The position numbers and the translations under genes were made by a program. A stretch of 64,000 nt of DNA from Polytrichum commune (lineage: Eukaryota > Streptophyta > Polytrichopsida > Polytrichales > Polytrichaceae), in contig OX485809.1 in assembly GCA_950295325.1 (NCBI GenBank), positions 6,882,001 through 6,946,000 of the forward strand, read 5' to 3'. The notes under the pieces were generated by a model. That model had not been told where the DNA came from, did no database searches, and saw only the letters and a program-made list of their open reading frames with translations. How positions within the stretch are numbered: the first letter of the stretch is position 1; every line of letters begins with the position of its first letter. This document shows positions 1,666-63,864 of this stretch, in pieces.

Positions 1666-4600
1666 CTAAACTTCAACTGAGGTTAATTCTTGGAGTGTTC
1701 TAAGCCCAGCTGCATACATAAGTTTCTTATGCTTATATGCTGGCAATGCCTTGGTTAACATGTCCGCAACATTATTCTCTGATTCTATCTTAACAATAGC
1801 TAATTGTCTTTGCTCTATCAAATCTTGTGTAAATCCAAAAATATGTGGGCTAACATGCTTGGTTCTATCAGCCTTGATGAAGCCTGTAGCCATTTGTCGT
1901 ACGCACGCGGAGTTGTCCTCGTAGATGATAGTTGGCTGGTCCAAGATCTTGAGATTACACTGCTGGTCCAGAATCTTCTCCATTGTTCGCAACCATACGA
2001 CTTCACGTGCAGCCTCATGGAACGCCAGCAGCTCCGCATGGTTCGTCGATGTAGCTGTAACTGTTTGCTTGGCGGTGCGCCACATTTCATGAAAATATAC
2101 CCAGTTTGTGATTTCCCTACATTCACATCAGTCCTAAACCCAGAGTCTGCAAAACCTTGGATATTAGGCTGGTCAGTTTTGTGGTAATATAGTCCAAGAT
2201 CTGATGTTCCCCTTAAATATCTTAGCAAATGTTTAACGCCATTCCAATGTCTCAAGGTGGGGTTTTGACTATGTCTTGCTAATATACTTGTGGCAAATGC
2301 AATATCAGGCCTAGTATGAGTTGTAAGGTAAGTGAGTGCACCAACTGCAGTGAGGTATCTAGGCTTGTCCACTACCTCCTCCTCCTCCTCACGAGGTTGG
2401 TAGGGGTCATCATTGGTCTTACTTCTCCCGATCATTGGGGCTGCCAAGGGATTGGCCTGATCCATGTTGAAGAGTTTAAGGATTTTCTGCACATAAGCTT
2501 GTTGATGTAGTAAGATGCCACCATTAGTCACATAATGAATCTGTAACCCTAGGCAGTATGAGGTTTGACCAAGATATTTCATGTCAAAGTGTTTTGTGAG
2601 TATTTCTTGGGCATATGTACAAAGTTCTGGTGTGCCTAAGATATTTAGGTCATCAACGTATACAGCTAGAATCACAAAACCATATGATGAGGTGTAGGTA
2701 AATATACAGGGTAAGGTTGTATTGTGAGTAAATCCTTGGGAAATTAGAAAATGGCATAAATGGTGGTACCATGCTCTCCCGGACTGTTTCAGGCCATACA
2801 ATGCCTTACAGATTCGGAGACCGGTAAATTTACCTGGTTTTGGATTCGGGATAGATTTCAGAAATCCAGGGGGTGGGGTTAAGTGAAGCTTTGTATCCAA
2901 ATTACCATGCAGATATGCAGTAACTACATCTAGAAGATAGATTTTGAGCTGAAATTGAAGAGATAAAGCTAAGAGGTAGCAAAAGGAAACTGTATCCATT
3001 ACAGGTGAGTAGGTCTGATCATAATCAATACCGGGTCGCTGTGTGAACCCCTGAGCCACTAATCTGACCTTATAGCGTAAGACTCTACCTTGGGAGTCTA
3101 ATTTACGGGTAAAAATTAACTTATGCCCTATAGGCTGTTTATCAAGGTCTGTGGCTACTTCCGCGAATACGCCGTGTTTTCGTAAAGACGAGTATTCTGT
3201 CTCAATGGCAGCCTTCCAGTGAGGCCAGTCTGCCCGCTGCATTGCTTGGTCTAGGTTAATTGGATCAGTTTCAGGGATCGAGTCAATAGACTCGGTTGTG
3301 TAATGGATTCGGGGAATTTTAGGTATTGAAACTGTTGGGGAAGTTGGTCCTGGTCTCTTTCGGGGTAAATTATTGCCTGTACCAGGAATAGGATTTCGAA
3401 TGATTCGAGGCTGGGTAGAGAAACCGTCAGGTGTGTTCTCAGCAAGGTTTCTGAGATGGAGTAGTTTAGTAACCTCGGTATTAGGTAATGAGGTAGGTGG
3501 ATCAGGGTTCATTGTCAAAGTCTCTGGTGCACCAAAGTTCAAAGGTATAGGGTGAGGTTTGATGGATAAGGCTGGGAAGATGGTTTCAAGAAATCGGCAG
3601 TTGGCGAAGCGTGCCTTATAGAGGTTCCCTGTGGAAGGATCAAGGTATCTGATAATTGAAGGGGAATCAAATCCAACATAAATGCCAGATTGACGGTGGG
3701 CTCCAATTGTGTGCCTGTGGGGGTCTGGGATAGGAACCCATACCTGGCAGCCGAATACTCGGATGTGTGAAACATCCGGTGTTCTGCCAGAGGATAACTC
3801 TTGTGGGGTTTGGGTATTCAAAAGTGTAGGTCTCAGTTTGAGTAGAGAGGCTGCATGCAACACTGCATGTCCCCACAGGTTAGATGGAAGGTTAGCATGG
3901 AGGAGTAGAGGTCTAGCTATGAGTTGTATCTTTTTAATGAATGCCTCAGCTAGGCCATTCTGTGAGTGCTCATAGGGTACTGAATAGGTAAGAGTAATGC
4001 CTGTAGCTGTGCAGTAATCCTCGAATACATGAGATCGAAATTCCCGAGCATTATCCATGCGAAGGTACTTAATTGGATAATCAGGGAAATGATTTCTGTA
4101 GCGGAGGAGGATTGCTAGTAATCTGGGGAAAACCATGTTGCGGGTGGGTAGTAGTGCAACCTCAAAATGGGAGCCCGATGCATCAACTATAACAAAATAG
4201 TACCGAAAAGCTCCTGATGGTGGGTTAATAGGTCCGCAAACATCCCCATGGAGTCTATACAGGGGAGGGGGTAGCTCTGTTGGTAAAGTCCAGCGAGATG
4301 GTTTCTTCGCGTATTTACCTTGAATACAGGCTACACAATCATGAGTCTTCCCTACGTCAGCTGTAACGAGGTTATGACCAGTTAATAAGGGAAGCATCCG
4401 CCGAAAAACAGTAGTGCCCGGATGTCCTAACCTCTCATGCCATAGATCAGGCTTGGCTTTAGTGTCTATAGACACTCCCTGCGCCAGGTTGCGGCGTTTT
4501 GCTTCAGGGTCTCCCGCCCAAGCAGCCATGCACACCTCTTCCTCATCTATCAGTGAGATGGGGCTCATATTGTCAAGGGGGTTTATGACAATCTTGTATA

Positions 4601-5291
4601 GGCCATCGTCTCCCGCTCTCGCGGTGGCAAGGATCGTCGGCCCTTGCCTGAGTTCCAGGACCTCTTCATCATTTTCTACCGCAGTAGAAACGTGGATATT
4701 CCTCGCTCTCAGATCCCTGTAGCTGATCAGGCTACGAGGCGCATCTGGAGCGTACATTGCCTTTTCGCAATTGAGGGGGGATCCTCCGGGCAATATCACG
4801 GTTGCCCGGCCCTCTCGAAACCTAATGTTTCGACTTCCAGCCATTGTAATAATGGTACAGTTTTGCCAAGGTCCCTCATTGTCATGAAATTGGAAAAATT
4901 GAGGGTTTGTGAGTATTGTGTGAGTGGATGCACTGTCTAGGAGGGCCTCATTGGGATTTGATGAGGTGCCCTCGTAGAGAGTCATATAGTTCTCGATGTC
5001 TTCAGTATAGGGAGAGGGATTGGGAGCTGGGTTCGGATTTTCGAAGTTATAGGCTTGCCTGGTTTGAGTTCTAAGTTGCTGGAGCTCCTTATACATGCTG
5101 ACTATGTAAGAAGGAGCTCGGCAGTCTTTGGCATAGTGGCCCTTTCGGCCACACTTGTGGCAGTTGCCTTGAAAACTGCGGGACTGTTGGGTCCTAGGTT
5201 TGAACTGAGGGGGTTTGGGTCTAGGAGAGTCTCTTCTGGTTGATTGATGATACTGACCCCTAGGCACATCGTTTTTCCCATAGACTCGCAT
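1666..5291 (-). pseudogene. Copia-1 Pol: CCHC, protease, integrase, RT, frameshifted RNase H
   Basis: The open frame runs 5291 to about 2075 and continues in another frame to the stop at 1666. In order: zinc knuckle CHKCGRKGHYAKDC at residues 44-57; protease motif LLDSAS at about 118-122; integrase HHCC domain (WHERLGHPG...CVACIQGK), catalytic GDVCGP, MDNAREF and the NGLAEAF helix; RT motifs LLDVVTAYLHG and YVDD; then RNase H with GFADSGFRTD. After GCGAP the frame breaks. The remaining RNase H (HAELLAFHEA, YEDNSA, ADMLTKALP) is intact in the next frame. The sequence lacks 16 nt compared with Copia-2. Integrase and RT active sites look complete, so the protein may be partly functional up to the break. 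The start at 5291 is only the first methionine after the upstream TGA; the frame is continuous with Gag. Confidence 0.9.
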
Positions 5292-5333
5292 CTCTCTTGC
5301 GGGGTGAGAAGGGTAAGATTTTCGAAAAGAACC

Positions 5334-6077
5334 TCATGGGGGTCTTCTGGAGGCTTCGGCAGCATGCGCCTCAACTTTGATGTCAGCTGCAGGTTGTGTA
5401 GTAGTTGTGTGGACTTCCCTCGCAGGTCGGGATTCAGCGTTTCGGAGCAGGAGTTGTTGATGCTTCTCCGCGAGTAGAAGATGAGACATGAGCATCGAAT
5501 GCTTCTTGAATTTCATGTTTCTGTATTGCTGTGATAGGATAGCAGTCGCGGGTGGAAACGTTGAGAGAGTCTTCTCAATCAGCTCCGCATCAGTGACGTC
5601 TTGGCCGCAAAGTCGAAGTTGTGCGACAATTCGATGAAGCTCTGAGTTGAAGCTTACGAAATCAGGAAAGTCGAGGACGCGCAGGTTAATCCAATCGGTA
5701 CGCGCCTGGGGAAGGAACAGGGTTTGTTGGTGATGAAATCTCGCGTGCAGTTGCGCCCACAGCTCGGCTGGATCGTCAATCTCCAAGTACTGCAGTCGGA
5801 GGGATTGGTCGAGGTGGCGCCGGAGGAGCAAAAGTGCTTGCCACTTGCATACAGCAGGTATGTTGGTGGCAGGATCCGGAGCGTCAGAGGTCGATGCAAC
5901 AGGGGTGATTAAAGTCTTGGCCAGGTCCTCGGCACTCAACACAGTTTTTGCATCGTTAATCCATTCTAGAAAATTGTTGCCATCTGAGCTCAAGGGTGTG
6001 AACATTAGTGCTTGGAGCCTAGATTCTACTACTGCAGGTCCTAAAGTGGCATGAGACTCTCTAGTAAACCTATACAT
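5334..6077 (-). CDS. Copia-1 Gag N-terminal part
   Basis: This 247-aa frame encodes the capsid-like part of a Copia Gag. It has a conserved block (DGNNFLEWINDAKTVLSAED), then a UBN2/gag-pol-polyprotein-like helical region (LWAQLHARFHHQQTLFLPQ, NLRVLDFPDFVSFNSELHRI). The homologous frame of Copia-2 matches it closely over this stretch. It ends at TGA 5334-5336, after HAAEASRRPP. The same frame continues through GSFRKSY into the zinc knuckle of Pol, so this stop separates capsid from nucleocapsid plus Pol. The predicted product is a particle protein without its nucleic-acid-binding domain, unless the TGA is read through. Confidence 0.88.
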   Translation of the reverse strand: MYRFTRESHATLGPAVVESRLQALMFTPLSSDGNNFLEWINDAKTVLSAEDLAKTLITPVASTSDAPDPATNIPAVCKWQALLLLRRHLDQSLRLQYLEIDDPAELWAQLHARFHHQQTLFLPQARTDWINLRVLDFPDFVSFNSELHRIVAQLRLCGQDVTDAELIEKTLSTFPPATAILSQQYRNMKFKKHSMLMSHLLLAEKHQQLLLRNAESRPAREVHTTTTQPAADIKVEAHAAEASRRPP

Positions 6078-11324: not shown

Positions 11325-14300
11325 TCAACAAAAAGTCTCCAAATACCGAATATAGTGTTTTATGAGTGGTTGATATTTTGTGACTTTTTGATTTATGGTT
11401 TCAGTGGAGAATCTGTCATTACAGTATGTGAATTCTATAAATTGAACTGTAATTTCTGGTGTGGGTGCTTCTGGTGGTGGGGAATCGTAAGGGTGCCCTA
11501 TAATGCATAGAATGTCGGGTTTGAGTCTAGCATTACAATGACATCTTTGGGTACCACATGTGCAGGGTAGTAACCATGTTGGTACTGTGTTGTCTTGGGG
11601 TAGTTCATTATATGTACCTGCGTTCATGAGTATGTAGTGTCTTGTTATTTTATTTGAGACAAGAAGTTTGCGTATTTCCCATACCGCTTTGTTATGTCTT
11701 TTTGTAATTAGTGCGTGGATGTGTTGTTGTTTGCATTTAAGGAGTATATGTAGCCATGTATCCGCTTCTAATGAGTTGCAAATGTTACATGTATGGGATG
11801 GGTATGCAATTCTACCAAAAAAGAGTTGTTTTCTAGCTTGTCCCATGTATTGTCCAGTTCGGAATTTTACTAAGCACGTTTTTTGCTTGTCTGAGATAGC
11901 CGGGTTGGTCCAAAAGTCATTTGATAATGTCTTGTCGATATCTTTGTTATCAAGCCATTTATGTAATTGATGTGTTTGGGTTGCTAGAATGGCTAGGTTG
12001 TGTTTTTTATCGTGTTTGATGATGTATTTGCCAAGGTGGCGGATGGGGCCTTTGTCTGGTGTTTCTTGCATTGAATGCCACCAATCTTTTTGGAGGTAGT
12101 ATGGCGTGGGGTGCGCATGCTCATGTGTTGCTGTAGCGTCTCTATGTTCTAATTCACAACCCAATTTTGCTAATTTATCGGCTTGTTCGTTACCTTGAAT
12201 GTTTGTGTGGGCTTTGACTTTGTGTAGTGTGGTGGTTTGTGTGCGGGATTGCAGCATCTTAACTATGGATTCTAGTATCTTTTTATCCGGGTGGCTATTG
12301 TGTAGTGTTGGGTGTTTAGTTTGCGTGTTCAGGAGGTATAAGACATTGAGACAATCTGTAAAGATATGTGCCGGTTCATTCCGGTATGTGGTAGTGAGGA
12401 GGTGGAGGGTGTGGTGTATAGCCATAAGTTCTGCCCTAAGTATATTTTGGAGCCCGGGTAGTCTTTCTGTGATTTTGAGGTTTTTGAAAGGGTTGTATAT
12501 ACCATACCCTGTTTTTTCTCTTCTCCAATGCCCTCGGGTTATTTCTTTGGGTGGCATGAATGATCCATCCGTGTAATAGCAAAATTGTGGGTGATATTTG
12601 ACGGGTAGGCATATGTCGTGATTCGTGTATATGGGAGTGTTAGAAGTTTGGTTTGTAAGTGGATGGGGGGGCGGGTATATAAGTTGGGACCATTTCTTGC
12701 TTCTATTTACTAAGGTGTTTATAGGTGTAGGCGGTGCCGGTGTGTGAAATGATGTGGGTATTTGGAGGGTAGTGCTAATAGTGTCCATACGATTCGCATA
12801 TTCACATGATCCAGGGGACGTGTGTTTGTGGTGTATACATAATGTGTGGATGTCATGATTTTCTGTTCGTGGGTTAGTTCGTAATTCCGGGGGTATTGTG
12901 GGTTCATCATATGCAAGGGTGTCTGCTTTGAAATGTGAGATAACGTGAGAATCTGGGAAAGGGCCTTCATGGGGGTTGAGGTTGTGGTACCAATTTGGGT
13001 CAGTTGTTATGAGTATTGTGATTGTGTCTGGGTTATGTTTGGCGGCAAGTCTAGCCCAATGTAGGGCTTGCTGAGTGTCTTTTTCTGTGTGCGGGTGGGC
13101 ATATCCCACCCCTGCCCATTTATGTTGGAATGTTGTGCCTATTGACCCGAATACCTTGTCCCTAGAAAATGGGGAGGAGAATTGTTTCAATGTAGTAGGA
13201 CATGTGATTGGTGATGAGAAGTAGGAATGGGTGATGTGGAAGGAGTCGATGATGTTTTCTATGATGGCATTTGGGAGGGTGTATTGTGAGAGTTTGAGGG
13301 GGTCGTTTTTGGGCATTCTATATTTGTACCTTTGATACAACCATGCCACTTCTTTTTCAAAGGATTGTGTGGGGGGTTCTAAGTTGTGTGGTTTGTTTAA
13401 TGCATTTTGGTATTGTTCCCATAACCATTGTAGTCTTAGTTCGGGAATGGTAATTAGGTGGCGTCCATCATTATCATAGATGTGTGATGCGCCATATTGG
13501 CTTTGAATGGTGTGTTGTGTGCATTCAATGTCATTATCTGGGTTACATTCATTGGTATAAATGTGGCATAGGGGTATGTTTTGTGGTGGGTGGACATATC
13601 TTGTATCTCTCATTTGTGCTTCACTAAAGTTTATTTGGAGAATGTTGGTGAAGTGTTGGTGTTGTTTTTGGGTGTAGTATTGTGTTAAGAGTAGTATGTT
13701 ATGATTTATAGTGTTGTGGTTGTTCCATGGGAACAAGTCTCTTTGTGGGAGCCATTTATGGTATTTGGTTTCATTAGGAAGTATCCATTGGCAAAGGTAG
13801 GATGTGTAGTGTTTTGTGATTTTGTATTTGTCTTTGTATGTGTGCGGGTGGTCATTTATTATAGATTGTATTGGGAATTGTATGTGGTTTTGTTGGATGT
13901 GTAAGGGGGTTTTTGGATATTCCGGTAGTGGGGGTGGCATGGGGTGTATGTTATGTCTACTTAGGCTTGTGTTTATATGATGATTTTGTATTTTGTAAGC
14001 GTCCTTGAGAGTATTGGGTGTCGTATGTGTTAGGCAAGTATTTGGGCATTGGTTGTGACAAGGGGGTTTACAAAATATCTTACGCGCGTGTTCTAGGGCG
14101 GTTTTAACTATTTTAGTAGGTGGGGCATAATAGTACTTGAATTCATCATTTGTCATGAGGTGTGTGCCATTAGGGTGCGTTATGTGTTTTAGTTCGGTTA
14201 TGTTATGTAAAATTAATTTATGTAAGTATTTGAGGGAAGTGGTGGGAGTTAGTGTGGGTATATGATGTGCTTGACTCATCCATTGTGTCTCTAATGTTGT

Positions 14301-15239: not shown

Positions 15240-18128
15240 TTATATGGGTAGTGTTTTATTGAAGTGTTCCCCGATAAATGTGGTAGTTGATTGTGAATAG
15301 ATATTTCCTACTAGTGCTACGGCATCTTGCGGATAACCGAGGTCTTTCATAATGGCGAGGAGTCTAGCATGGTCGATAGACCCAAAGGCATTTTTGAAGT
15401 CTATGTATAGGATGTAGATGTCTTGGCTAGTGAGTCGTGCATCTTCTAATGCGGCAATGAGGGTTTGAAGTTGTCGGGCGGTGCATCTTTCCGCTCTAAA
15501 ACCCTCTTGGCTATCATGTAGAATTTGGTGTTTTTCCCCGTACGAGGAGAGTATACTAGTGAGCGTGCTAGTAAATAGTTTGTAAATAGTGTTGGCAAGT
15601 GCAATAGGCCGATGGTTGGTGAGGTGATGGGGGTTGCCTTTTTTGTATAAGAGTATCGTAAGGCTTGTTTTCCAAGCTTCAGGTATTTGTTTTTGTTTAT
15701 AACAGTGGGTAAAAAATAATAGTAGAAGCCTGTGGAATCTTGGCGGCATATTTTTTAGTATGGTGTTAGGAATTCGATGGGGTCCCGGCATTTTCCCGTT
15801 GGTAAGGTTTTTAAGACATATATCATATGTTTCGTGGTCTAGGTATGTGTGTAAGGGAGTTAAAGCTTCACCTCTCTTTTCTATAGTAAATCCGTTGAGG
15901 TCGTGCCACGGGTATTGTCTAACTCCACATAGGCATTGTTGTGGGTGATCGGGTTGATAATGGCATGTTGGGACGGTTGGTCTATTGCTTATGGATTGTT
16001 GCACATGTATTTCTTGTGCGATGTCTGTGGGGCTTGTAAGGATATTATTAAATCGATCTATTAGGCAATTTAGAGGGGGGATGTCAATATTCTTGAAGAC
16101 TTTTCTATTAATTTTCTTGGGACTTTTGTCATATAATTGTTGGTATTTGCATATGGCTTTTTTGATTTGTTGGGTTGTGTAGTTTGTTGTTATTTTGCGG
16201 GCTTTGTTTTTAGCTTCTTTGGCGATGTTGGCTAACCATGTTTCGTATGGGTGGGAAGGATGTGGAGGTGGGGGTATAGTAACAGAGGTATGGTTGTTAA
16301 TTTCTTGTGTGATGATAGGGTGAATTCGCCAATTTGGGTTGTTTTTTATTATATATATTGTTTTTCTAATAAGATGGTAGGTAGATAGATATATTTTCCA
16401 TTCTTTTTGGAGTTTCTTTGGAAGGTAGCCTCCTTGCTTAGCAATTTTGTTTGATAGCGTGGGGATGGGTGGGGCACTACATGTTTCTAGGACGGTGGTG
16501 GTAATGTTGTCGGTGAGGGAACTTAGTGATTGACATGTTATTTGCCATTGTTCATTTGTCAAGTGGTTATTTTCTAATAATTGTATGAGCTCGTCGATTT
16601 GGTTTGAGTTGTCCTCGAAGAATTTGGTGTGGAAGGTTTCTAGGTTTTCCTTAGGTATAGGGTTGAGTATCCTAGGTGGTGGGTCGGGGGTTGTGATTGG
16701 TTCTCTTGCTATAAGTGTGTTTGGGGGTATTCGGAGTTGTATAGGTAGATGATCGGAGTTTAGGTGTGTTGTTTGATTTGTAGTTGAGGTGAATTGGTGG
16801 TTATGTGGGGTTTTGATGTAAAATCCATCTATTAGGCTATTTTGTGTGTAATTATGTCCTTCTTGCCTTGAAAATGTTGTGTTTGTCGTGATATATGTTA
16901 GTTCTAGGTTGGTTGTAAAGGTTCGCCAAAGGTAATCTTCCGGTTGTGGCGGTGTAGTTTGTTGGTCATTTTGTCTTCCAATCAAAGCAACGTCTCTATT
17001 GAAATCTCCACATAGGATGTATGCGTGATTAGGGTGTGTATTTATTTGATGAGTGATGTTAGTTTGTATGATGGGGATGAGAGGTAGGTCCTCCTCATGT
17101 GAAGGCATATATAAATTAATTAAGAGCCATGGTTGTAAAGGTTGGTTTGCTATGCGCGTTACTTGGAGGAATGGAGATATGTTTGCGGGGGTGGGAATTT
17201 TGGAAAGATTTCCTGGGAATGCATGTTTGTTGTGTATTAGTAGTAGTAGTCCTCCTCTATATCCTCTATATGTCATTCGTTGGCGTGTGATTCTTGTGAT
17301 GTTGTGTGTGTTGTTAAAGAAAAATTTGTATTGAGGGAATAGGTGTTGTATATATTTTGTGGATTTAGTGGCGGAAAGCTTGGTTTCTTGAATGGTGATG
17401 ATTGATGGGGGTTGTTGGGGGTCCGTGATTAGTTCTTGTAGACATGACATGGTAGTGTTTAGTGAGGAGGCATTCCAGGTTATGGCGTATGATTCTTGAC
17501 TAGTTAGCGGGACCGGGTTGGGCGAGGGTGATGAATGATAAGTAATGGGGGGGTTGGGACGTGTGTATTCATTTATAGGTTCGTTATATCTTAGTGCCTT
17601 CATTAGTAGTTGTCGTGGTAGGTATGGGAATTTTTCTTGTAATTTTTCTATATTAACGGAGTTATGGTTTAGATGTATATAATCATATAATTGTTTGTGT
17701 ATTGTATTAGGAGGGGTGATAGTGTCTTTATATATATGACAAAATTGTGTATATGGGTGTGGGGTATCTATGTGTCTTTCTGGTGGGTTTTGCAACCTTG
17801 ACATTCTTTCTAGTAGTTGAGATGTCCATTCTTGTATTGGTTGGTGGTGTAGGAGTGTGTTACATGTAAGAGTGGAGGGACTAATGGTTACGACTATTGC
17901 ATAGATGACCCTTGGGGGAGGATGGTGATTATATTGTTGTATGTGATTATACAAGTATGGGAGGGAGCGTATTATTTGTGTATGTAGCAGATGTGTGTTT
18001 TGGAAAAGGGGTTTGAATGTTTCGGCCAAATGTTGGTATTCTGGGTGGAATTTGATCGTACTTGGTAGGAAGTATGTTGTTTGTCTTTTCTTGTGGGCAG
18101 GGGGGTGTGTTTTTAGTAGGTCAGGCAT

Positions 18129-18155
18129 AGGTCCTGGATTAGGGTGAATGTCTCC
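18129..18155 (-). other. 2A-like motif 3 (GDIHPNPGP)
   Basis: This matches the 2A core except His for the conserved Glu; the preceding LHLLILQC is hydrophobic, as in animal LINE 2A sequences. It lies about 210 residues before the endonuclease domain. Confidence 0.7.
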
Positions 18156-18434
18156 GCATTGTAAAATGAGTAAATGTAGTTGAGTATGGTGTTGTATTGT
18201 TATGCTTAATTGTGATTTTTGGTTGGGTTTTTTCGTGATTGGTTTATATTGGTTCGTGTGAAGGGGGGTGGAATTTGGTGGTGTGTATGAGTTTGAAATG
18301 TGGGGATTTGGGTAAGGTTTAAGTTTTTCTTTTAGGAGTTTATAGAGTATTTTAAACATAATTGTGTTAGTCATGAGGGATTGTTTTTGTCTTTGTATGT
18401 GTGCATGTGGGAGAGTGTTTAGAGTGTGGGAAGG

Positions 18435-18461
18435 TGGGCCCGGGTTTGTGTGTATGGCTCC
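18435..18461 (-). other. 2A-like motif 2 (GAIHTNPGP)
   Basis: NPGP is kept, but Asp and Glu of D(V/I)ExNPGP are replaced by Ala and His. It sits in the second copy of a duplicated YYTWNNSxFI...NPGP module, 53 codons downstream of motif 1. It is probably weak or inactive. Confidence 0.6.
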
Positions 18462-18593
18462 TCCTAGTAATATGAATATGGAGTTGTTCCATGTATAGTA
18501 GTGTTGAGGTTTGAGTGTTAGGGTTTTTGGTATAAAGTATTGTTTTTGTCGTTGTGTGTATTCTTTGGGGAGGTTTTTGAGGGTGGTTGAGAG

Positions 18594-18620
18594 CGGCCCC
18601 GGGTTTAGTTCAATGTCTCC
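18594..18620 (-). other. 2A-like motif 1 (GDIELNPGP)
   Basis: An exact match to the ribosome-skipping consensus D(V/I)ExNPGP, preceded by NNSTFIILH. It is expected to separate the nascent chain between the final Gly and Pro, at about ORF2 residue 247/248. Confidence 0.85.
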
Positions 18621-19329
18621 GTGTAAGATTATAAATGTAGAGTTATTCCACGTGTAATATGCTATGGTTTTCAGTTTTGGTTTTTTGTGGTGAATGTGTG
18701 TTATGTTGTAGATATTGCCTATATATATTGATATATTGATGGGGATGATTATGTGGGTTGTGTTGTTGTGGTTTTTGTGTGGGTTTTTGTTTATGTGGTA
18801 GTGGCGTTTGTATGTGTGTGAGGTACTCTTTCTATAGTTACATTGGTGGGTGTTGTCTATGTGTGGTGTGTATGTTGTGATATTATGTGGTCTATGGGAG
18901 TAATGGGGATTATAGATGTATGCGGTAGGTATCTTATGGTTGTTTGGGAGATGCGTTAATGTGTGTATTTGTAGTGTGTGGGTAGTGATAGGTTTGGAGG
19001 TCTTCGTGTGTGATGTGTGTTGTAGCCTAGGTGGGATTATGGGTGGTGTTGTTTTTTGGGTGTGATTGTGAGGGTTGTACATGACGTGTCTTAGGGGAAA
19101 TTTGTGGGTATGGTGCGTTGGATTATGTGTGATTTTGGTGTGTGTGTGTTTTGTTAGGAGGAAGAGGGTAGCAATTAGTGGACATATATATTGGAAGGTG
19201 AGTCTAGCTTTGTGGGAGGTTATGTATGGAGAAAATATACCCTTCAAAAATGAGGGCATTTTATTATATGAAGAGAAAACAATACAACATATAGAGGAGA
19301 GGGACCATTTATGGTGTCCTTGGAGGCGA

Positions 19330-20064
19330 CTATCCATTAAACGCGCTAGGTCCTTGGTGAGACATTGTTGGGTTGTTATGGAAGCCCGGTGGTGCTTGTA
19401 GAGGTAGCGGGGAGGCGGTCGTGTTGTAGCTTTGTGGTAGTGGGGGTGGGGCGGTTCGTTGTAGAATTTCCGGTGCGGCGGCGGCGAGTCCGTTTACTAG
19501 GCCTTGCATGCGGAGGTTCGATTGTTGGAACTTGTGAGCAATTGTACCAAAGAGTGCTTGAAGGTTGTTGGTGTGGTGTGTGATGGTCGCCGTGGTTGTT
19601 TCGAGGCGTCGATCCGTATGCGTATTGATTGTGGTGGTGAGCGTGCAAATTTTTTCATCCAATTTGTCTTCGAATTCCTTCATGGTTTTGGTGAGGTAGT
19701 TTTCGGTGAGGAGTGGGTTGGCGTTGGTGGCGTTGCCCATGGCTTGGATTTTCTCCGCAATGGCTTCTCGCACGGGAGCTTGGGCTAGTCTTATCGCCGT
19801 CTTGTTGGGGTCCGTACCGTTTATACTTCCTCGGTGTGGGATGAAGTTGATGCGGCGTCCAAGGATGAATGTGGATTTGTGAAGCCATTCCGTGTACACC
19901 GCGGTGTTGAGACATTGGATGTGGCACCATCCGGCTTGTTTGTCGGTGTGGGGTAGGTTGTTGTTGCCGAAGCTAATGCCAACGATGTTGTCCGTCCCGA
20001 ATGCATGCTTGATGGCCCTTGTAATTGTTGTTTGTGTCTCCCGTTGTGGTAAGTTGTTAGCCAC
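19330..20064 (-). CDS. LINE ORF1, C-terminal part (RRM-like plus coiled coil)
   Basis: The frame is open back to about 20096 and ends in TAG overlapping the ORF2 start. It begins with a beta-strand like an RRM (SELRISTTLVANNLPQRE), then a compact alpha/beta region (IVGISFGNNNLPH, WCHIQCLNT). A predicted coiled coil follows (MKEFEDKLDEKICTLTTTIN, HHTNNLQALFGTIAHKFQQS), then a proline-rich tail. This fits a nucleic-acid chaperone that forms LINE RNPs. The missing link to the upstream part is a one-base frame change at about 20085-20096. The listed start is only the first start-like codon. Confidence 0.7.
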   Translation of the reverse strand: MANNLPQRETQTTITRAIKHAFGTDNIVGISFGNNNLPHTDKQAGWCHIQCLNTAVYTEWLHKSTFILGRRINFIPHRGSINGTDPNKTAIRLAQAPVREAIAEKIQAMGNATNANPLLTENYLTKTMKEFEDKLDEKICTLTTTINTHTDRRLETTTATITHHTNNLQALFGTIAHKFQQSNLRMQGLVNGLAAAAPEILQRTAPPPLPQSYNTTASPLPLQAPPGFHNNPTMSHQGPSAFNG

Positions 20065-20074
20065 TAGTGTTGTA

Positions 20075-21682
20075 CTAATTCGGAGCTCCGAAGGGTTTGC
20101 CGGTTCCTCGGTCTCGGGTGATGCTTACTTGAAGCCTCTCATGGTTGAATGTGAGCCCCTCCTTAAGTATGTGGTCGCGTGCTTCTTCGGTGGTGAGTGT
20201 GAGAAACGCAAAATTTTTGTCGAGTTCCGGCTTGGTGAGGCCCATGAATTCGTGTTGTTGTCCGTTGTAGTAGCTCTCCCGAACAATGGTTTCGAAAATG
20301 TTGAATGCATGCTCATATCGAAGTGTTTCTCCCTTGAGGTGCAATCTAAGGTTGCGGGCTTTAGTGGCAAGCTCGTACTCCTTCTCCACCTTACCAATGA
20401 CCAACTCTTTGTCCTCCATTTCCATGACAAATGCTCGGTTTCCTTGAAATAGTGCATGCCCGTCGCGTTGTGGGTGTTGGAGATGGACCTTGATGAAGCC
20501 CGCCCAATTTTTGGTGACGGCGTTGATCCCTACATCAAGAGGGTTCGAATATGCCGTGCCAAGTGGAATGTCCATTTGCTTAAGTCTCTCAAGGCAAGCC
20601 CCTCTAGCTTCTTGCCTACTAATACTTTTAAAGCCAAAGTCAAAACGAATGGTTACATGGAACCCTTCGGATAGGCCGGTTGAGGGGTCTACCTTTTCTT
20701 GTCTTGGGATTTGTGTAAAGTGGAGGTGGTTGCCGGGGACCGCGTCCGGGCGTTCGCTTGGATAGAAAAGTTGTGGGACTCTTGGAAATGCTCTCCGAAG
20801 GGTTTTGAAGTGGATGATTTCTTTCGGGGGTGTCCCAATCCGAGCAAAATCTTCGTTGGTGCGGAGCTCTCGTATGACGTCTACATCCTTTTGCACCGCA
20901 ACGGCTTCATGGATGGGGAAGCCCAACCACATTTGGGACACTATGTCAATGCTTGGAATTGCTTCCTTGGACCTCGTGTTGTGTGATTTGTGTGAGTCGG
21001 GATTGGCCTCTATTCCTCCCGATTCGCTTCGTCTTCTCTTCGCACTTTGGTTGTCCGATGTGGCTACATTCATTGAGCTCTTGTGTGTTGTGGTGGTGGG
21101 TGTCTTTTCGGCCAAGTTGATGGTGTCAAGTCGAAGTATGGCGGCTTGGTTCGGGGCGGCCATGAATTCATCATTTGAGAGGGAAAGTTGAAGTGAACTC
21201 CCCCCATGCTCGGGGGAGACGTTTTCTAATTGCATGTCGATGTCGATGTCTTGGAAGGTGAGGGCCTTCCCCTTCATAAGCGATGGTGGCATTGTGTGGA
21301 GGTCGTCTTTCGCAGCTTCGTTTTCATCGCTGTAATCTTCGATTAGTGCCCTCCTTCTGCTGCCATTACTGGTGCGGATCCCGGTTCCTTTGTGGGCTGG
21401 GTCCTTGTTGCCTGCCGCTCCGTTGTTGCAGAGTGGTGGCGCCGCTATGCTCCTCCCTTGGTCTTCCGCTTCGCGGGCGCCTTCCTCGCTCTCTCCTTCC
21501 TTTGCTCGGCGGCGGTTGCTGAGGCAATCCTTGCCTGCGCTGGCTCTCTGTTTGCTGATCTCGCTCCCTGCTTTTAGTCGGAGGCTGCCCTTGCTCGTGG
21601 TGCCGGAATTCCGAGTCTGCCTGGCTCTGCTCCGTGGTTCTACATCTGTGTGCATCGCGGTGTCTTCATGGGGGGTAGCCAT
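20075..21682 (-). CDS. LINE ORF1, N-terminal part
   Basis: The frame is open further upstream to 22639, but that part is A/C-rich low complexity. The first convincing ATG is at 21682 (MATPHEDTAMHTDVE), giving 535 residues. The N-terminal half is basic and Ser/Thr-rich. The C-terminal half is globular (VSQMWLGFPIHEAVAVQKD, TLRRAFPRVPQLFYPSERP, FHVTIRFDFGFKSISRQEA, FIKVHLQHPQRDG) and ends in an RRM-like beta strand (KNFAFLTLTTEEARDHILKE). It stops at TAG right after RDRGTGKPF. The next frame carries on without a gap in sense, so ORF1 is one protein with a frameshift or a recoding site. It most likely binds the LINE RNA. Confidence 0.7.
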   Translation of the reverse strand: MATPHEDTAMHTDVEPRSRARQTRNSGTTSKGSLRLKAGSEISKQRASAGKDCLSNRRRAKEGESEEGAREAEDQGRSIAAPPLCNNGAAGNKDPAHKGTGIRTSNGSRRRALIEDYSDENEAAKDDLHTMPPSLMKGKALTFQDIDIDMQLENVSPEHGGSSLQLSLSNDEFMAAPNQAAILRLDTINLAEKTPTTTTHKSSMNVATSDNQSAKRRRSESGGIEANPDSHKSHNTRSKEAIPSIDIVSQMWLGFPIHEAVAVQKDVDVIRELRTNEDFARIGTPPKEIIHFKTLRRAFPRVPQLFYPSERPDAVPGNHLHFTQIPRQEKVDPSTGLSEGFHVTIRFDFGFKSISRQEARGACLERLKQMDIPLGTAYSNPLDVGINAVTKNWAGFIKVHLQHPQRDGHALFQGNRAFVMEMEDKELVIGKVEKEYELATKARNLRLHLKGETLRYEHAFNIFETIVRESYYNGQQHEFMGLTKPELDKNFAFLTLTTEEARDHILKEGLTFNHERLQVSITRDRGTGKPFGAPN

Positions 21683-22643
21683 GGTGGTGCTACTGTGTGA
21701 GCTGTGGAGTGGGATGAGAGATTGGGAGCAATGTTGGGGTATTTGAAGGGATCGGTGGGAGAGGTTGGATGGTTTTTTCTGGTTTGAGTGTGGGCTTGGC
21801 GGGTGGGCGCCGATCTGCTGCGGGGTGGCGAAGTGTCGCATAACTGGTTTTAGCTGAATGCTTGCTGAAGTGTGATTTGGTGAGGTCAGAGGTGTGCTGT
21901 GTGTAGATCTACAGCGCTGCTTGGGAGTATTCGTGTTGTGGGTGGATGTCGGAGTAGTCTTGGCTGGGTTTAGGGGGTGTAGGGTACTGGGTTTCGGCCA
22001 GATTTGGGGTTCTTGAAGGTAGGGTGTGTGTCTTTTGTGTGAGGCCTTAGTGTTTGTTTGTTTTGGACCTGCTTTTGGGTGGGCATCGTGGTAAACTTGG
22101 GTGCCTGGTGGTGTTCTTGATTTGGTTTGCTGGGCTGTCATAGTGGGGCTTTCTGATCTACTCTGGTTCGGCGCGGTTCTGGGCTTGGCGTGAGGATTCG
22201 TGAATGTGCGAGGGGGCGCTGGCCAGCGGGGATCAAATTTTGGAGGTAAGCCTTTGATTAGTTTTGTGGTGCTTTTGTGTTTTTTTATGAAGATAGTTTG
22301 ATGATGGTAGGGGCAACCAGATTTGCTTACCCTTGTGTGCTTGTGGGGGTGTGTTATGGGCGGCCATGGCGATGTGCGTGGAACTGGTGGTGGCTTGCGG
22401 GGAGAGCGCGGATCTGGTGGTCTTTTTGGAGGGCGCCCTTGGTGTTCTATGAGTTTGGATGGAGAGTTTCTTGCTGGTGTTCTTGGTGGATCTCGGTGTG
22501 GGGGCAGAAAGCTTAGAGGGTTGAGTGTGAGCGTTGCTAGTGTGAGATGGCAGTGTGGAGGGTAGTTGGTAGGGGTGTGCATTTGTGGAGTAGTGTAGGG
22601 ATGTGTGTAGGCACACATGAGAACGGTGCTTAGGAGCACCCAT
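21683..22643 (-). other. LINE 5' leader candidate
   Basis: Strong sense-strand A/C richness and open but low-complexity Pro/Thr/His-rich frames continue to about 22640, then composition changes. I take this as the LINE leader or an N-terminal extension. No internal promoter motif was recognised. Confidence 0.4.
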
Positions 22644-39228: not shown

Positions 39229-39600
39229 GTCTTGCTTATGTTCATCTGCAGCTCCAATATCGCTCCAATCCATATTCCTCGTATCTAGGGCCATGACTGT
39301 GTCCATAACACACACTTGAGTTTCACTGAGGTGTACCAATACATTATATTGCACAGGATGCACCAGCACAAATAGGGCACTAGGGCCGGTGCATTACCCT
39401 GCACGTTTTATGATCGCTTGTTCAAAATTCACCCTTTTTGGAGCGCTCTGCGTTGCTCAAATCCATATTGCTCGAGTCCAGCGTCATGACGACGTTCATA
39501 TATAATGCACACTTGTGTTTCACTGAGGTGTGCCAATGCACTCTATTGCACGTTTATGTTCGCTTCTGCTCTCATCCTTTTTGGTGCTCTCTGTATGGGT
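39229..39600. repeat. Imperfect tandem duplication spanning the oxygenase gene 3' end
   Basis: A unit of about 145 bp recurs. TGCACGTTTTATGATCGC (39401) matches TGCACGTTTATGTTCGC (39545). CCTTTTTGGAGCGCTCTGCG matches CCTTTTTGGTGCTCTCTG. An earlier unit carries CCATATTCCTCG...TTTCACTGAGGTGT (about 39271-39338), matched at 39461-39527. The last unit contains the stop codon and last codons of the gene. Confidence 0.65.
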
Positions 39601-42189
39601 CGGTCACGCCATTCTTGAAAAAATTTACGCCGTAGACCCTCAGCCTCTTTACGTGCCTTCTCCCATTTTCGTACGATGTGGGGGAAGGCCTCAGGACATT
39701 TCTCGATCACACAATACGCTCCCGCGCCCCGGCCACCTTCGGTGCCAATGGCACAATATCCATCTGCGTAGAAGCCGTCGAACCAGCTCGCAAGTTTCCG
39801 TGCGTCTGGTAGGCTGCACAAGTTGTGGTACGTGAGTTTTGGTTGCGGGCCGCGGAGAAAGGCTTCTATAGATGGGTGGTCAGGGAACTGTGCTAATGGC
39901 TGACACCAACTGAGCACGGGCTTCTCCGAGCGAGCATCGATCCATGCGAGACGGCCTTCGATAAGGGCTCGCAAAGCATCTCGGCCATGGGGTCCCACGA
40001 TCCACGCGTTCCACAAGTGGTTTGACTGGAGCACCTTCTTCAGCAAGTGTTGCTGATTGTACACGCCGGCTTGCTGTAGTAGAGATTTGGCAAGACCTGC
40101 AAGGCAGTCCCAGGAGGAGGCCACCAACATGTTCACCACCGCGTTAATAATCGCTGCCGGGAACTTCCCAGGCCGAGTAACCGTGGCATAGATAAGTTTG
40201 AACGTCTTCTCGGCAACTATGAGAGCGGCTTCCCGACATTGCACCCGCTGAAGCTCCACAACAAGCTGGAGACAGTATTCTCCCTCAATCGGGCGCTCGG
40301 GGGCTTTGTGGGGATTAAACTGCATCACTTCAACAAGACAACTTTTCGGCAGCAATTGCAGCACAAGATCTCCACAGGCTGCCCAACCATAGGTGTGAAC
40401 CGCGGCGGCAATCGACTTGGTTACAAACCCGGTTCGCATCCCAATTATCATCGTTTCTGTTTGCGGAGGCTCACAACGAAACTGCACCGTATAGCGTTCG
40501 CCATAACATTTGAGCACCCGGAGCACGTCTGCCAACCCTCCAACTGCCAAACACACATCCAGCAACCGAGAACTCACATCATACGCCCCGGACGTGCTTT
40601 GGGCCGAACTCTTGTTCCGACTATGATTCGAGAACTTGACCAACCGTCGTCGAATGTCGGCTCTCAGTTGCCAAATCCTAACACGGTTGCGCTCACAATG
40701 CGCGAGTACTTGATCCAAAAGCAAACGAACATGAGGATCCCTTTCTTCGTGCATCGCTTCCACCATGTTCAACAAGCTCAACAATCCGGCCTCCTCGTGG
40801 TGTGAAACTCCATATCCGTGAAAGGACTCGTAAGATGAGTGTGCAGGATGGGCAAGGGTCTCCACAATCTTCGACTTCGGCCAGACAACAAGCATCGCCC
40901 TGTGGTGGAAAAAATCCAAGTTGGGGCCTTCGTTTCCGAAATAGCCCCTGTACCGGAATTGATCTGGATCTGCAAACAACCCTGGTTGATCATTTCCCAG
41001 CACGACCTCGGTGTCCAGAGCAAGCTCAGGATACACGGGCATTCTGTGGTCACCGATCGAAACCCACGTGTAAGTCTCCACCGTCTCGTCCATCACATAC
41101 TCCATGATGAAGCGTGGGTCTTGTTCACCAGCCCATGCCTTCCGAAACAGCCGGCAGGGAGGAGGCTCCATCGCATTTGGCAACCCATACTCAGTCTTCG
41201 AACCGAAGCATAAGTGAAGCGCAAGGCGTCGATCGAAGCAACACCGCAGGACCTTGGCCAGGACCATATCCTCCCCTTTCAATCCCGCGAACCCCAGACT
41301 CGTTGCCGTGTACTCATGCTGTAAAGGGATTGCAAATTTGGTAGGAAAGAATGTGGAGCTTTGATTTGATGCTTCCTCCAATGCCTCCGTGGCCTCTAAC
41401 CACGGCTGCAACACATCCTCCACCTTCCTCACCCGAGGACAGTCTGGGAGAATTTGATGGGCCCCAATTTGCTTGGTCGTGCGTCGGACCAAATTGAAGC
41501 TCAGGCAAAGACGAGCCCCGGCCGTGATGGGTTGCAGCGTGTATTGGCAATCTGCGAGGAACGAGGTGTAAAAGAATCCCGTGGCGCTCTGCTTGGAGTA
41601 GTCGAACGTCATGGCGCCCGGCCCATGCTCCACCACGAGCGCGCCTCCTTTAAAACCTCTTTCAGTGGGCAACTGCACAAGTAAAGTGGCAAACAACCCA
41701 ACCTCCTTCGTGACACAGTGAGGCTTGAAATGGCCGCCCGTCTCGTACAGCAGGAGCTTGTAGAGGCGGGCCTCAACTTCGGGGTTGTCAAATGAGACAG
41801 GACAGTCGACCCCCAACGCGCGCACTGCCGTGCCCGCAACCTCTTGCAAGGTCTTGGTGAGGAACTCAGGCTTGGTCGGGAAGCTCACCTTGGCCGCGTC
41901 CACCTGCCAAGCTCGTCGAATCGCGGTGTTGAGAACCGTGTTCCCGCCATGCCCGTGCAGCGCCTGCTCACAAACGTTCCGCAGCTTCGCCACATCGGCG
42001 GCGGAGAGTGGGAGACGCAGAGCACCCACGCCTTGGACTCACATTGATCAGCCCACTCGTGGCGAACGTGCCGCTCGCAGCAGTGGAAGATTGCTGCTCA
42101 TGGGTCGCGGCGAGGAGGTCGCTGAAAAACCGCCGGCGCTTCTCCTTCGCTTCTGCTTCGGCCGCGTGGGGATCCATGGCTGACCCCAT
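39543..42189 (-). CDS. 2OG-Fe(II) oxygenase-fold protein, probably catalytically inactive
   Basis: The long frame (42029 to stop 39543, 828 codons) has an N-terminal prolyl-4-hydroxylase-like Fe(II)/2-oxoglutarate domain. Residues 95-180 contain YETGGHFKPHCVTKE, LLVQLPTERGFKGGALVVEH and DCQYTLQPITAGARLCLSFN. In this family the metal site is H-x-D...H. Here the Asp position is Val (H104-C-V106) and the distal His position is Tyr163, while Arg173 is kept. The roughly 640-residue C-terminal part has no domain I recognise. The long frame has no ATG. An upstream frame (ATG at 42189 or 42177; MGSAMDPHAAEAEAKEKRR to ATSGLIN) fits the family's N-terminus but sits one frame off near 42033-42042. GC-rich coding sequence in AT-rich surroundings marks it as a host gene. 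Confidence 0.75.
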
Positions 42190-50944: not shown

Positions 50945-53428
50945 TTAACATCCAGGAGAGGTTAGTGAATGGAGTGTTCTCATTCCAGCTTCTGCTACTA
51001 GCTTCTTATGTTTATAGGCTGGCAAGGCCTTGGTCAACATATCAGCCAGATTATGTTCTGATTCTACTTTTCTAATTTCTAGCTGGCCTTTCTCTATTAA
51101 GTCTTGACTAAATGTAAAGATGTGAGGGCTGATGTGCTTAGTACGATCAGCCTTAATAAATCCAGATGACATCTGTTGTATGCATGCAGCGTTGTCTTCG
51201 TAAATGACTGTTGGCTGATCTTTGTTCTTGATTCTGCACTGCTCCATCAGAATGTTTTCCATGGTCCGAAGCCAAACACATTCTCTTGCAGCTTCATGAA
51301 ACGCTAGAAGTTCTGCATGATTAGTAGAGGTGGCAGTAATTGTTTGCTTCGTGGACTTCCAGGAAATGGGAGCACCATTCTTCAGAAATAAATACCCAGT
51401 CTGTGATTTGCCTGCAGCCATGTCAGTCCTGAAACCAGAGTCTGCAAAACCTGAAATTTCAGGATTGTTAGTCTTTCTGTAGAATAGGCCTAAATCAAAA
51501 GTCCCACGAAGATACCTCATTAGATGCTTAACCCCATTCCAATGTCTGATTGTGCGGTTCTGGCTGTTTCTTGCTAGAATACTGGTTGCAAAGGCTATAT
51601 CAGGCCTAGTATGAGTCGTTAAGTATGTAAATATCCCAACTGCTGTGAGGTACTTAGGTTTATCTATAACTTCCTCCTCCTCCTCACGAGGTTGGTATGG
51701 ATCCTGATTAGTTTTGCTACGCCCGATCATGGGTGCTGCTAGGGGGTTAGATTTATCCATTTGAAATTCCTTAAGTACTTTGTTTACATATGTCTCCTGG
51801 TGTAACAATATACCCTCATTTGGTACGTAATGAACCTGAAGTCCTAAACAAAATGAAGTAGGTCCTAGGAACTTCATATCAAATTTCTGAGTCAAAATGT
51901 TTTGGGCATACTTACAGAGATCTGATGTACCAATTATATTTAAATCATCAACATAAACTGCCAAAATAACAAAGTCAGAATCTTTAGTGAAAGTAAATAT
52001 GCATGGTAGGGTAGGGTTATATATAAAACCTTGTGCAATTAGAAAATTGCATAAGTGATGGTACCAGGTACGACCAGACTGTTTTAGACCATATAAAGCC
52101 TTATATATTCTGAGTCCTGCAAATTTTCCTGGTCTGGGGTTAGAACTGCTTTTCAGAAATCCAGGGGGAGGTGATAAGTACAGAACAGAATCTAGTTCAC
52201 CATGAAGATTTGCTGTAACGACATTTAATAAGTAGATATGCAAATTCATGTGAACCTTCAAAGCTAGTAAGTATTTGAAAGATGTTGTATCCATTATTGG
52301 GCTGTAGGTTTGGTCATAGTCAATGCCAGGTCGCTGTGTGAATCCTTGTACCACTAATCTGACCTTATATCTGATTATCTCTCCCTCAGCATTGAATTTT
52401 CTGGTGAATATTAACTTATGACCTACAGGTGGTTTGTCTAAGTCTAATGAGAGATCACCAAAGACTTTGTGTTTTCGAAGGGAGTTATATTCAGTTTCAA
52501 TGGCCTGCTGCCATTGTGGCCAGTCTGGTCTGCTCATGGCATGTCTAAGGGTGGCTGGATTAGAATCCAGGGTAAAATCTGGTTGAAGGGTGGATGAATC
52601 AGATGGTTCAGATGTTTCCCCAAAATAAATATTCCTGTCCCTGTCTTCATTCTTCAAGTCTTGGACATCTTCGGCTGTGTAATGAGATTTAGTTCGTTTA
52701 GGTGGTCTATGGGTAGAGGTTGGGTTTTCAGGGTATCGTTTAGGTAGGTTTGTCCCGGTACCAGGAAGGGGGTTTCTAATAATTATGGGTTGAGATGAAA
52801 AACCATCTGGTGTATGGTCTGCTAGGTGTTTGAGGTTCAGAAGCTTAAGGACTTCTGTGTTGGACAGTGCTGTAGGTGGATCAGGATTTAAGGTCAAGGT
52901 TTCAGGGGCTATAAAGTTTAGATCTTGAGCTTTGGATTGGGATATGGTCTTTAATGTTGGAAATACAGATTCTAAGAATCTGCAGTTGACAAATCTAGCT
53001 CGAAGTAGAGCTCCTGTTGTGGGATCCAAGTATCTGATTATGGATTTTGAGTCAAAACCAACATATATACCCTCCTGTCTATGAGGCCCAATAGTGTGTC
53101 TCTTAGGCTCACTCACAGGTACCCATACCTGACAACCAAAGATTCTGATGTGTGCTACATCTGGTGGCCTACCTGAAACCAACTCATATGGGGTGTGACT
53201 GTTTAATAAGGTTGGTCTTAACCTTAGTAATGCTGCAGAGTGTAGTACTGCATGGCCCCAGAGTTCTGATGGTAGGTTAGCATGTCGTAATAGGGGTATG
53301 GTTATTAGCTGGATCTTTTTGATAAAGGCTTCTGCTAGGCCATTTTGGCTGTGTTCATAGGGTACAGAGTATGTGAGTGTTATTCCCATGGCTGTACAGT
53401 AGTCTTGGAAGGCATGTGATCGAAATTC
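50945..53428 (-). pseudogene. Copia-2 integrase C-terminus, RT and RNase H
   Basis: Same frame as the upstream part, after TAG 53429-53431. It begins EFRSHAF, then the integrase NGLAEAF helix. RT motif A is LLNVVTANLHG (codon 52223-52225 is AAT, Asn); Copia-1 and the family have LLDV. YVDD is intact. RNase H is complete (ADSGFRTD, HAELLAFHEA, YEDNAAC, ADMLTKALP), which defines the segment missing from Copia-1. The product would be RT-dead even if the nonsense codon were bypassed. Confidence 0.9.
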
Positions 53429-63138: not shown

Positions 63139-63864
63139 CTACACTACGGCGCCCTTCTGCAAGCTGCTGAGGATCTCCTCAGCGCTGCTGGTGGTGAACG
63201 CACCGCCCTCCTCAAGGTTCAGAGTTTTCACCACCCCATCCTCCGCGAGCAAGGAGTACCTCCGTGAGCGCACCCCAAGGCCCACGGGCTTATCGCTCAA
63301 ATCCACGGTAGCCCCGAGCGCTTTTGTGAACTTCCCCAACCCGTCCGACAACATAAGCACCTTGTCCCCCACACCAATGGACTCCCCCCACGCGCGCATC
63401 ACGAACGCATCGTTCACGGACACGCACGCCAGCGTGTCAACCCCCGCTTGACGGAGCTCATCCGCCTTCGCTACAAACCCTGGCAAGTGCTGCGACGAGC
63501 ACGTCGGTGTGAACGCCCCAGGTACCGCGAAGATCACCACTTTCTTCCCTTTCGTGAGTTCGCTCACTTTCACCGTTTGCACGTCGCCTTCCTTGTCGAA
63601 GTACGACAGCTCTGCCTCGGGTAGGGTTTCCCCCACGCTAATGGCCGCCCTCGCTGCCAAACCCGAAGGGCAGGAGGAGGAAGAAGAAAATCCCCTCCTC
63701 GTCGTCGTCGTCGTCCTCGCATTATTCATGAATCCTTTCGGGGACACCACCCGGGCGCCGAAAAAGGCTGCCTTCATGGCCTTGGAGCTCACCACACCAC
63801 ACGCCGGTGCTGCCCGAGCTGCGCAGCTCATCTGCATCCCTGCCATTGCCGCTGTTGCCGCCAT
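63139..63864 (-). CDS. PRXIIE: Type II peroxiredoxin, plastid-targeted type
   Basis: 241 residues from ATG 63864 to TAG 63139-63141, single exon. Residues 1 to about 72 are Ala/Ser/Arg-rich with few acidic residues, typical of a chloroplast transit peptide. The mature thioredoxin-fold domain reduces H2O2 and alkyl hydroperoxides, using thioredoxin/glutaredoxin-type donors. The peroxidatic Cys122 is in [16 protein letters not shown]; the second Cys147 ([13 protein letters not shown]), 25 residues later, is the intramolecular resolving Cys of the PrxII class. The active-site Arg lies in [12 protein letters not shown] (about 199-202). All key residues are present, so it should be active. Length and motifs fit plant PrxII E. 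The coding sequence is GC-rich, unlike its surroundings. Confidence 0.93.

Follow-up and report, generated by a model that had tools for sequence, protein, structure and literature searches.

Candidate 2A (StopGo) sites and apparent leader exchange in Dualen-like LINEs of a green-lineage genome

According to the passages of PMC12846837 consulted here, StopGo recoding by 2A sequences is frequent among RNA viruses but seldom occurs in cellular genes, and there is no evidence that plant viruses employ it. Among non-LTR retrotransposons, 2A has been attributed to L1Tc of trypanosomes (Heras 2006) and to elements of APE type in multicellular organisms (Odon 2013), both as cited in passages of PMC4981915 and PMC11512398, and picornaviruses carry several 2A NPGP sites whose number varies among close relatives (a section of PMC11512398); on these partial accounts, 2A in LINEs and multiple 2As in picornaviruses are already known. 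The Dualen/RandI elements, with families in Chlamydomonas (passages of PMC3636483, PMC4640811 and PMC3747384), are reported to possess RNase H and two kinds of endonuclease, APE and PD-(D/E)XK-type (passages of PMC3636483 and PMC4640811). FMDV 2A has been used in Chlamydomonas (an excerpt of PMC3427385), so green-lineage ribosomes can probably skip. Our literature search, which covered few subscription papers, turned up no paper describing 2A in retrotransposons of the green lineage.

The window analyzed here, a stretch of 64,000 nucleotides, contains a LINE whose ORF2 runs in one frame from 19337 to 11325 on the minus strand, with three in-frame stops (codons 1366, 1477, and 1503). A first-pass annotation had placed three NPGP motifs in this frame, and translation from the ATG at 19337 bore this out; the duplicated YYTWNNS...NPGP...QRQKQ module that it described is likewise present in the ORF2 of the window. 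The element is made up as follows:

20075..22639, minus strand: main part of ORF1, ended by a frame change near 20,070 (the ORF1 of L051/L052 is continuous in one frame there)
19330..20064, minus strand: C-terminal part of ORF1 (91-97% identical to clade A at the nucleotide level, in bins of 90 bases)
19330..19337, minus strand: ATGGATAG, ORF2 AUG overlapping the ORF1 UAG stop (same overlap in 20/20 loci)
18621..19337, minus strand: ORF2 leader (residues 1-239) ahead of the first 2A core; basic, rich in His and Thr, and of clade-A type by sequence comparison
18594..18620, minus strand: 2A motif 1, GDIELNPGP, canonical (residues 240-248 of the ORF2 translation)
18501..18530, minus strand: junction of clade-A-like and clade-B-like sequence, within the YYTWNNS codons (local alignments)
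18435..18461, minus strand: 2A motif 2, GAIHTNPGP, D to A (residues 293-301; A12 only in the three copies of the window subfamily)
18129..18155, minus strand: 2A motif 3, GDIHPNPGP (residues 395-403; constant terminal site of clade B)
16950..17483, minus strand: AP-type endonuclease domain (Exo_endo_phos; Pfam, E 2.4e-5), the match beginning 216 residues past motif 3
15297..15638, minus strand: reverse transcriptase, matched part (RVT_1; Pfam), followed by in-frame stops at 15242, 14909, and 14831
13050..13397, minus strand: PCIF1_WW-like domain, of the cap m6Am methyltransferase family (Pfam, E 2e-9)
12156..12584, minus strand: RNase H domain (Pfam, E 2.4e-14)
11373..11789, minus strand: C-terminal CCHC, RHN, PD...E and K..KY set, restriction-like-endonuclease-like at motif level

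This copy is dead, with ORF1 broken by comparison with L051/L052 and a 3' end that diverges at 11359 from 6/6 copies compared. The family, and not the window copy, must therefore decide function.

The description of the element as an APE-type LINE with RNase H was correct but incomplete, since the PCIF1-like domain and the C-terminal CCHC/RHN/PD set, which resembles that of the R2-type endonuclease, are also present. An APE upstream of the RT and an RNase H in ORF2, two features of Dualen/RandI, were both found by Pfam. In nine aligned copies of the C-terminal set the CCHC, RHN, D of PD, E and K..KY positions are invariant and the P of PD is kept in eight; PDB sequence and profile searches with this domain gave no restriction-like-endonuclease match, and its fold model had a pLDDT of 36.7. 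The RT of L051 matched R2 chains (E 8e-25) ahead of L1 (E 6e-13) in a PDB search, and no close relatives of the RT were confirmed in viral and prokaryote contigs. Because APE, RT, and RNase H occur together with the C-terminal set, the element appears Dualen-like, being likened to Dualen/RandI by published descriptions.

The PCIF1_WW-like domain stands, in these LINEs, after the RT and before the RNase H and has at least 150 matches in the element's own genome; in L051 and L052 the match falls under the Pfam cut-off. By eye, AHPH (window) and AFPT (L051) stand in place of NPPF, which we take to be the catalytic motif of PCIF1. Between RT and PCIF1-like domain, residues 1738-1787 of the L052 ORF2 gave a weak chromodomain-like match (E 0.12). 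Our literature search found no report of PCIF1-like domains in retrotransposons. Elsewhere in the window are two Copia-type LTR elements (1818-6077 and 50945-55603, both minus strand), recognized from RVT_2 and other Pfam matches for ORF 1818-5291 and for the remainder by eye from similar ORF sequences. A peroxiredoxin at 63139-63864, minus strand (Redoxin Pfam match; closest PDB entries peroxiredoxins), has an N-terminal extension resembling a plastid transit peptide, and an 828-aa ORF at 39543-42029, minus strand, had no Pfam match at E 0.05.

Chance does not account for the triple NPGP in ORF2. The number expected from its composition is 0.021, and among 20,000 shuffles NPGP was absent in 19,581, occurred once in 415 and twice in four, and never three times; in a control with 11 permuted tetrapeptides, PNPG alone was found, once, inside motif 3. 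Measured against the core (D/G/C/N)(V/I)ExNPGP, motif 1 is exact, motif 3 departs at H14, and motif 2 departs at A12 and H14. The assignment of motif 1 as 2A-like held up, in that it fits both the core and the L-rich upstream class.

We searched the element's own genome (408 Mb, 64 contigs), whose green-lineage origin, already proposed, agrees with an rbcL on contig C8 that is best matched by presumed land-plant Rubisco chains (696 bits against chains that we take to be pea, 661 against one presumably from Chlamydomonas). A protein search with ORF2 residues 220-420 gave at least 168 matches, and the DNA pattern for GD(I/V)xxNPGP gave 425 sites on both strands while the reversed pattern gave none. 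The feature is thus carried by hundreds of genomic sites and is not confined to one unusual element, as had been supposed; the genome-wide protein matches and exact sites rule out a single odd element. On contig C1, 94 exact sites fall in 80 clusters (68 single, 10 double, and two triple), and 34/34 of the C1 loci extracted match the LINE endonuclease or the stretch preceding it. RT, endonuclease and dispersed copies were all found, as expected of a LINE. A relaxed scan of loci L001-L066, of which L001-L030 had been chosen by likeness to the window (L001 being the window copy), found one to four motifs per locus, part of them decayed. One kind of single-site family has the sequence ...LLxCGDIE(P/S/T)NPGPMPNILxTHPxxHKxR..YF, and array families show a repeated YYTWNNS.(L/I)ILL.GDI(E/Q/H)xNPGP. 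Absence of NPGP at these positions from related copies, which would have refuted the first-pass reading, was not what we observed.

Conservation was assessed in two ways. Within 82 distinct contexts, which were picked by motif score and so are biased towards conserved cores, N16 was kept in 82, P19 in 80, D12 in 80, and G18 in 78, and third codon bases vary; these contexts exclude L030 and L025 (the same places as L006 and L010, respectively) and L067-L073 and L080-L087 (other regions). Positions D12, I13, and N16-P17-G18-P19 are fixed, position 15 is free, and E, H, or Q predominate at position 14. GDIETNPGP alone has 13 DNA spellings among 18 sites on contig C1. Upstream, I or L stands at -4 in 81/82 contexts, L or I at -3 in 79/82, and G before D in 79/82. 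The residue ahead of that G is C, G, H, or S; motif 1 itself has H-G, compared with A/S/C-G in the L-rich class. By eye, the L-rich run that precedes D12 and ends in C/G/H/S-G looks similar to the L-rich classes in the portion of PMC12846837 consulted.

The second assessment was anchored downstream, elements of clades B and C being taken by the protein sequence just after the last motif. Of 142 rows starting at query residue 1, three apparent duplicates on the small contigs C24, C36, and C50 were removed to give 139, and eight rows starting elsewhere were left out; the motif was taken from loci already extracted or genome-wide site lists in 60/139, and one row was counted as not exact because it was missing from the C1 site list. 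Exact GD(I/V)xxNPGP was present in 108/139 elements. It was associated with longer open frames, both over all 139 rows (Mann-Whitney p 0.0004) and for frames of at least 600 aa against shorter ones (58/66 versus 50/73, p 0.008), and these p values are optimistic as the copies are related. With the cut at 1000 aa (22/24 versus 86/115) the difference was not significant (p 0.10). We rejected a smaller anchored sample (n = 40; exact 20, NPGP 22) which omitted known motif rows and was therefore biased against the motif, and with it the contrast of 22/24 versus 19/35 (p 0.003), which carried the same bias against exact motifs.

The variants at positions 12, 14, and 16 bear on which sites might function. 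The residue at position 14 of the 108 exact anchored rows is E in 68, H in 29, K in nine, and Q in one, with a stop in one. The last motif has His-14 in 20/20 clade-B loci read, two of which have lost another NPGP residue, and L037, the nearest single-site relative, has E. Work on viral sequences (Li et al. 2026) found H at position 14 and H at position 16 to be rare yet more than 95% active, the value for H14 being measured in reticulocyte lysate; earlier work gave 26-56% for E14Q, D12A abolishes F2A activity, and Lys-14 is absent from the variants called active, all according to the passages of PMC12846837 consulted. Since H14 is active in viral 2A, motif 3 is a plausible active site by analogy, and its first-pass reading as decayed is contradicted both by those published tests and by its constancy in clade B. 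The reading of motif 2 as decayed survives in part. In the window subfamily it is probably dead, given that D12A abolishes F2A; A12 is common to the window, L002, and L003 only, and D is present in three sister copies (L005, L006, and L009).

Lys-14 occurs in 6/22 exact rows whose frames reach 1000 aa or more; among these are near-identical copies, with frames as long as 2,924 aa. Near-identical Lys-14 contexts with long frames lie at C4:34919652, C1:51775600, C6:27637463, C5:46487799, and C3:41258051, and two Lys-14 copies read over 2 kb were without a further exact motif. This family looks young, and skipping in its elements may be weak or dispensable. His at position 16 was found in 6/139 rows, five of them sisters and all with frames under 430 aa; these copies may simply be dead. 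The sister copies, of NHPGP type, lie at C1:38518004, C1:54958044, C2:38391848, C4:5246021, and C5:27324339. On contig C1, position 14 is E in 53/68 lone exact sites versus 1/26 clustered ones, a contrast between related copies that is only suggestive. A rule that arrays always lack Glu was ruled out, as arrays with E exist (window, L010, and L017) and so do lone Q, H, and K sites.

In 20/20 loci with a recognized ORF1 end, the ORF1 UAG overlaps an AUG as ATGNNTAG, and this overlap is kept although the ORF1 C-termini differ. This AUG shares its frame with the first motif in 16/20 loci, with no intervening stop in 13; it is out of frame in 4/20, and a stop intervenes in three more. The conservation of the overlap suggests stop-start coupling between ORF1 and ORF2.

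Comparison with related copies in 90-base bins shows the window element to be a mosaic, in which ORF1, the leader and motif 1 belong to one clade, motifs 2-3 and the enzymes to another. Identity to clade A (L011, L012, and L015) is 80-98% from 20160 to about 18541 and then mostly 44-72%, and identity to clade-B copies is 91-99% from about 18450 down (L005/L006), 88-100% from 18270 down (L009), and 93-99% from 18180 down (L028). Synonymous divergence differs between the two parts (against L012, leader dS 0.22 and endonuclease dS saturated; against L028, leader dS 1.8 and endonuclease dS 0.12), which shows that leader and enzyme differ in descent. L005 and L006 have about 250 extra bases between the modules flanking the junction, and loss of sequence by deletion between tandem modules may have played a part in it. 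The leader seems to be translated, with dN/dS of 0.42-0.44 at dS 0.22-0.25 (window versus L011, L012, and L015); among three near-identical copies the leader dN/dS is above 1 (eight and 13 changes). Clade-B copies with endonucleases 94-97% identical have at least six leader/2A layouts, given by the letter at position 14 as E-H(A12)-H, Q-E-H/Y-H, E-H-H, H-H, K-H, and Q-E-H, and a further layout, Q-H in L078, is based on 47 residues of endonuclease. A tree of the endonuclease from 62 rows, which leaves out L030, L025, L001, L033, L024, L049 and any locus with under 110 residues of the domain, requires five changes between single and multiple sites, all forced by starred branches (quick method, SH-aLRT only).

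We consider it likely that, in this LINE clade, 2A (StopGo) recoding serves to separate an exchangeable leader at the N-terminus from the enzyme polyprotein. Ribosomes would restart at the AUG overlapping the ORF1 stop once ORF1 ends, and the bond before the last Pro would be skipped at each active GDIxxNPG/P, freeing leader peptides, with a Pro-initiated endonuclease-RT-RNase H protein coming next. In the window subfamily motif 1 and motif 3, the His variant, are probably active and motif 2 probably is not, and the predicted products are residues 1-247, 248-402, and 403 onward; the release of a 247-residue leader from the enzyme at motif 1, put forward at first pass, is supported as a prediction from sequence. 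At the level of sequence, the copies compared show that clade B keeps the last 2A site and everything downstream constant, with the upstream part swapped in from other lineages, and that arrays are tandem or recipient-derived 2A units retained ahead of the constant one. In-frame gain of a leader would be tolerated because the skip site separates leader from enzyme.

Alternatively, the terminal 2A alone may work, the upstream array motifs being decaying passengers of leader recombination, a serious prospect that we nevertheless hold to be the lesser one. The alanine of motif 2 in the window subfamily fits this account, as do middle sites reading NLGP and NPDP in L004, EDIQ in L076 and RDIE in L005, and one site suffices in many lineages (40/62 tree rows). 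It fits poorly with the array loci read, which retain at least one exact upstream motif in L001-L006, L008-L010, L017, L019, L022, L023, L027-L029, L052, L053, L065, and L074-L079, L007 being the sole one without. Module 1 also shows dN/dS of 0.10-0.50 in 17 comparisons and 0.72 in one (some of these pair non-orthologous modules), and arrays require the five changes, all forced, on the quick endonuclease tree.

Skipping might not occur at all if GDIxxNPGP were conserved at the N-terminus of ORF2 for a structural or binding role. The frequency of Lys-14 among long-frame elements strengthens this explanation and weakens the skipping one; we still regard it as unlikely, because the fixed and free positions coincide with those of StopGo, an L-rich run ending in G stands ahead of the core, and the part upstream of the last motif is exchanged while the part downstream stays 94-97% identical. 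A single unusual element with one functional canonical motif and two decayed ones, which the D12A change in motif 2 would suit, is very improbable in view of the constant His of motif 3 in clade B and the 425 exact sites.

Returning to leader detachment by 2A, we speculate, with more doubt than confidence, that 2A sites act as in-frame acceptor ports, at which 5' cassettes (ORF1, leader, and 2A) are plugged by recombination or template switch onto a constant 2A-enzyme module, and that lineages set leader-to-enzyme ratios through site number and through which residue (E, Q, H, or K) stands at position 14. If true, 2A would be a device for modular evolution besides protein processing. Here two LINE families meet within the 2A region, which makes it possible to test whether skip sites let selfish elements freely swap their N-terminal parts. 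In this streptophyte-like genome, hundreds of LINE 2A sites, with arrays of up to four and natural H, Q, and K variants, amount to a large natural experiment on functional 2A sequences.

The elements are like Dualen/RandI, as described, in their APE and RNase H, apparently in their C-terminal CCHC/RHN/PD motifs, and in an RT nearer to R2 than to L1 in a PDB search; 2A is unmentioned in the passages of PMC3636483, PMC4640811, and PMC3747384 that describe Dualen/RandI. Sea urchin NLR proteins, as presented in the part of PMC4981915 consulted, also have an N-terminal 2A-like element able to split off a leader, but these are host immune genes and the 2A-like element is also a signal sequence. The multiple 2As of picornaviruses share with the arrays a variable site number, a spacing of 50-150 residues and location in a highly plastic region (a section of PMC11512398), whereas here the host element is a retrotransposon, the constant site is a His variant and the mosaic partners are identified. 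As in the 2A-bearing LINEs of trypanosomes and multicellular organisms, a 2A-like core lies in the protein of an APE-type LINE. Judged through passages of the papers citing those elements, the present ones appear to differ in their green-lineage host, in an ORF that also holds PCIF1-like and RLE-like parts, in arrays of two to four copies, in a conserved His or Gln at position 14 and, foremost as a novel point, in the exchange of leaders at the 2A boundary.
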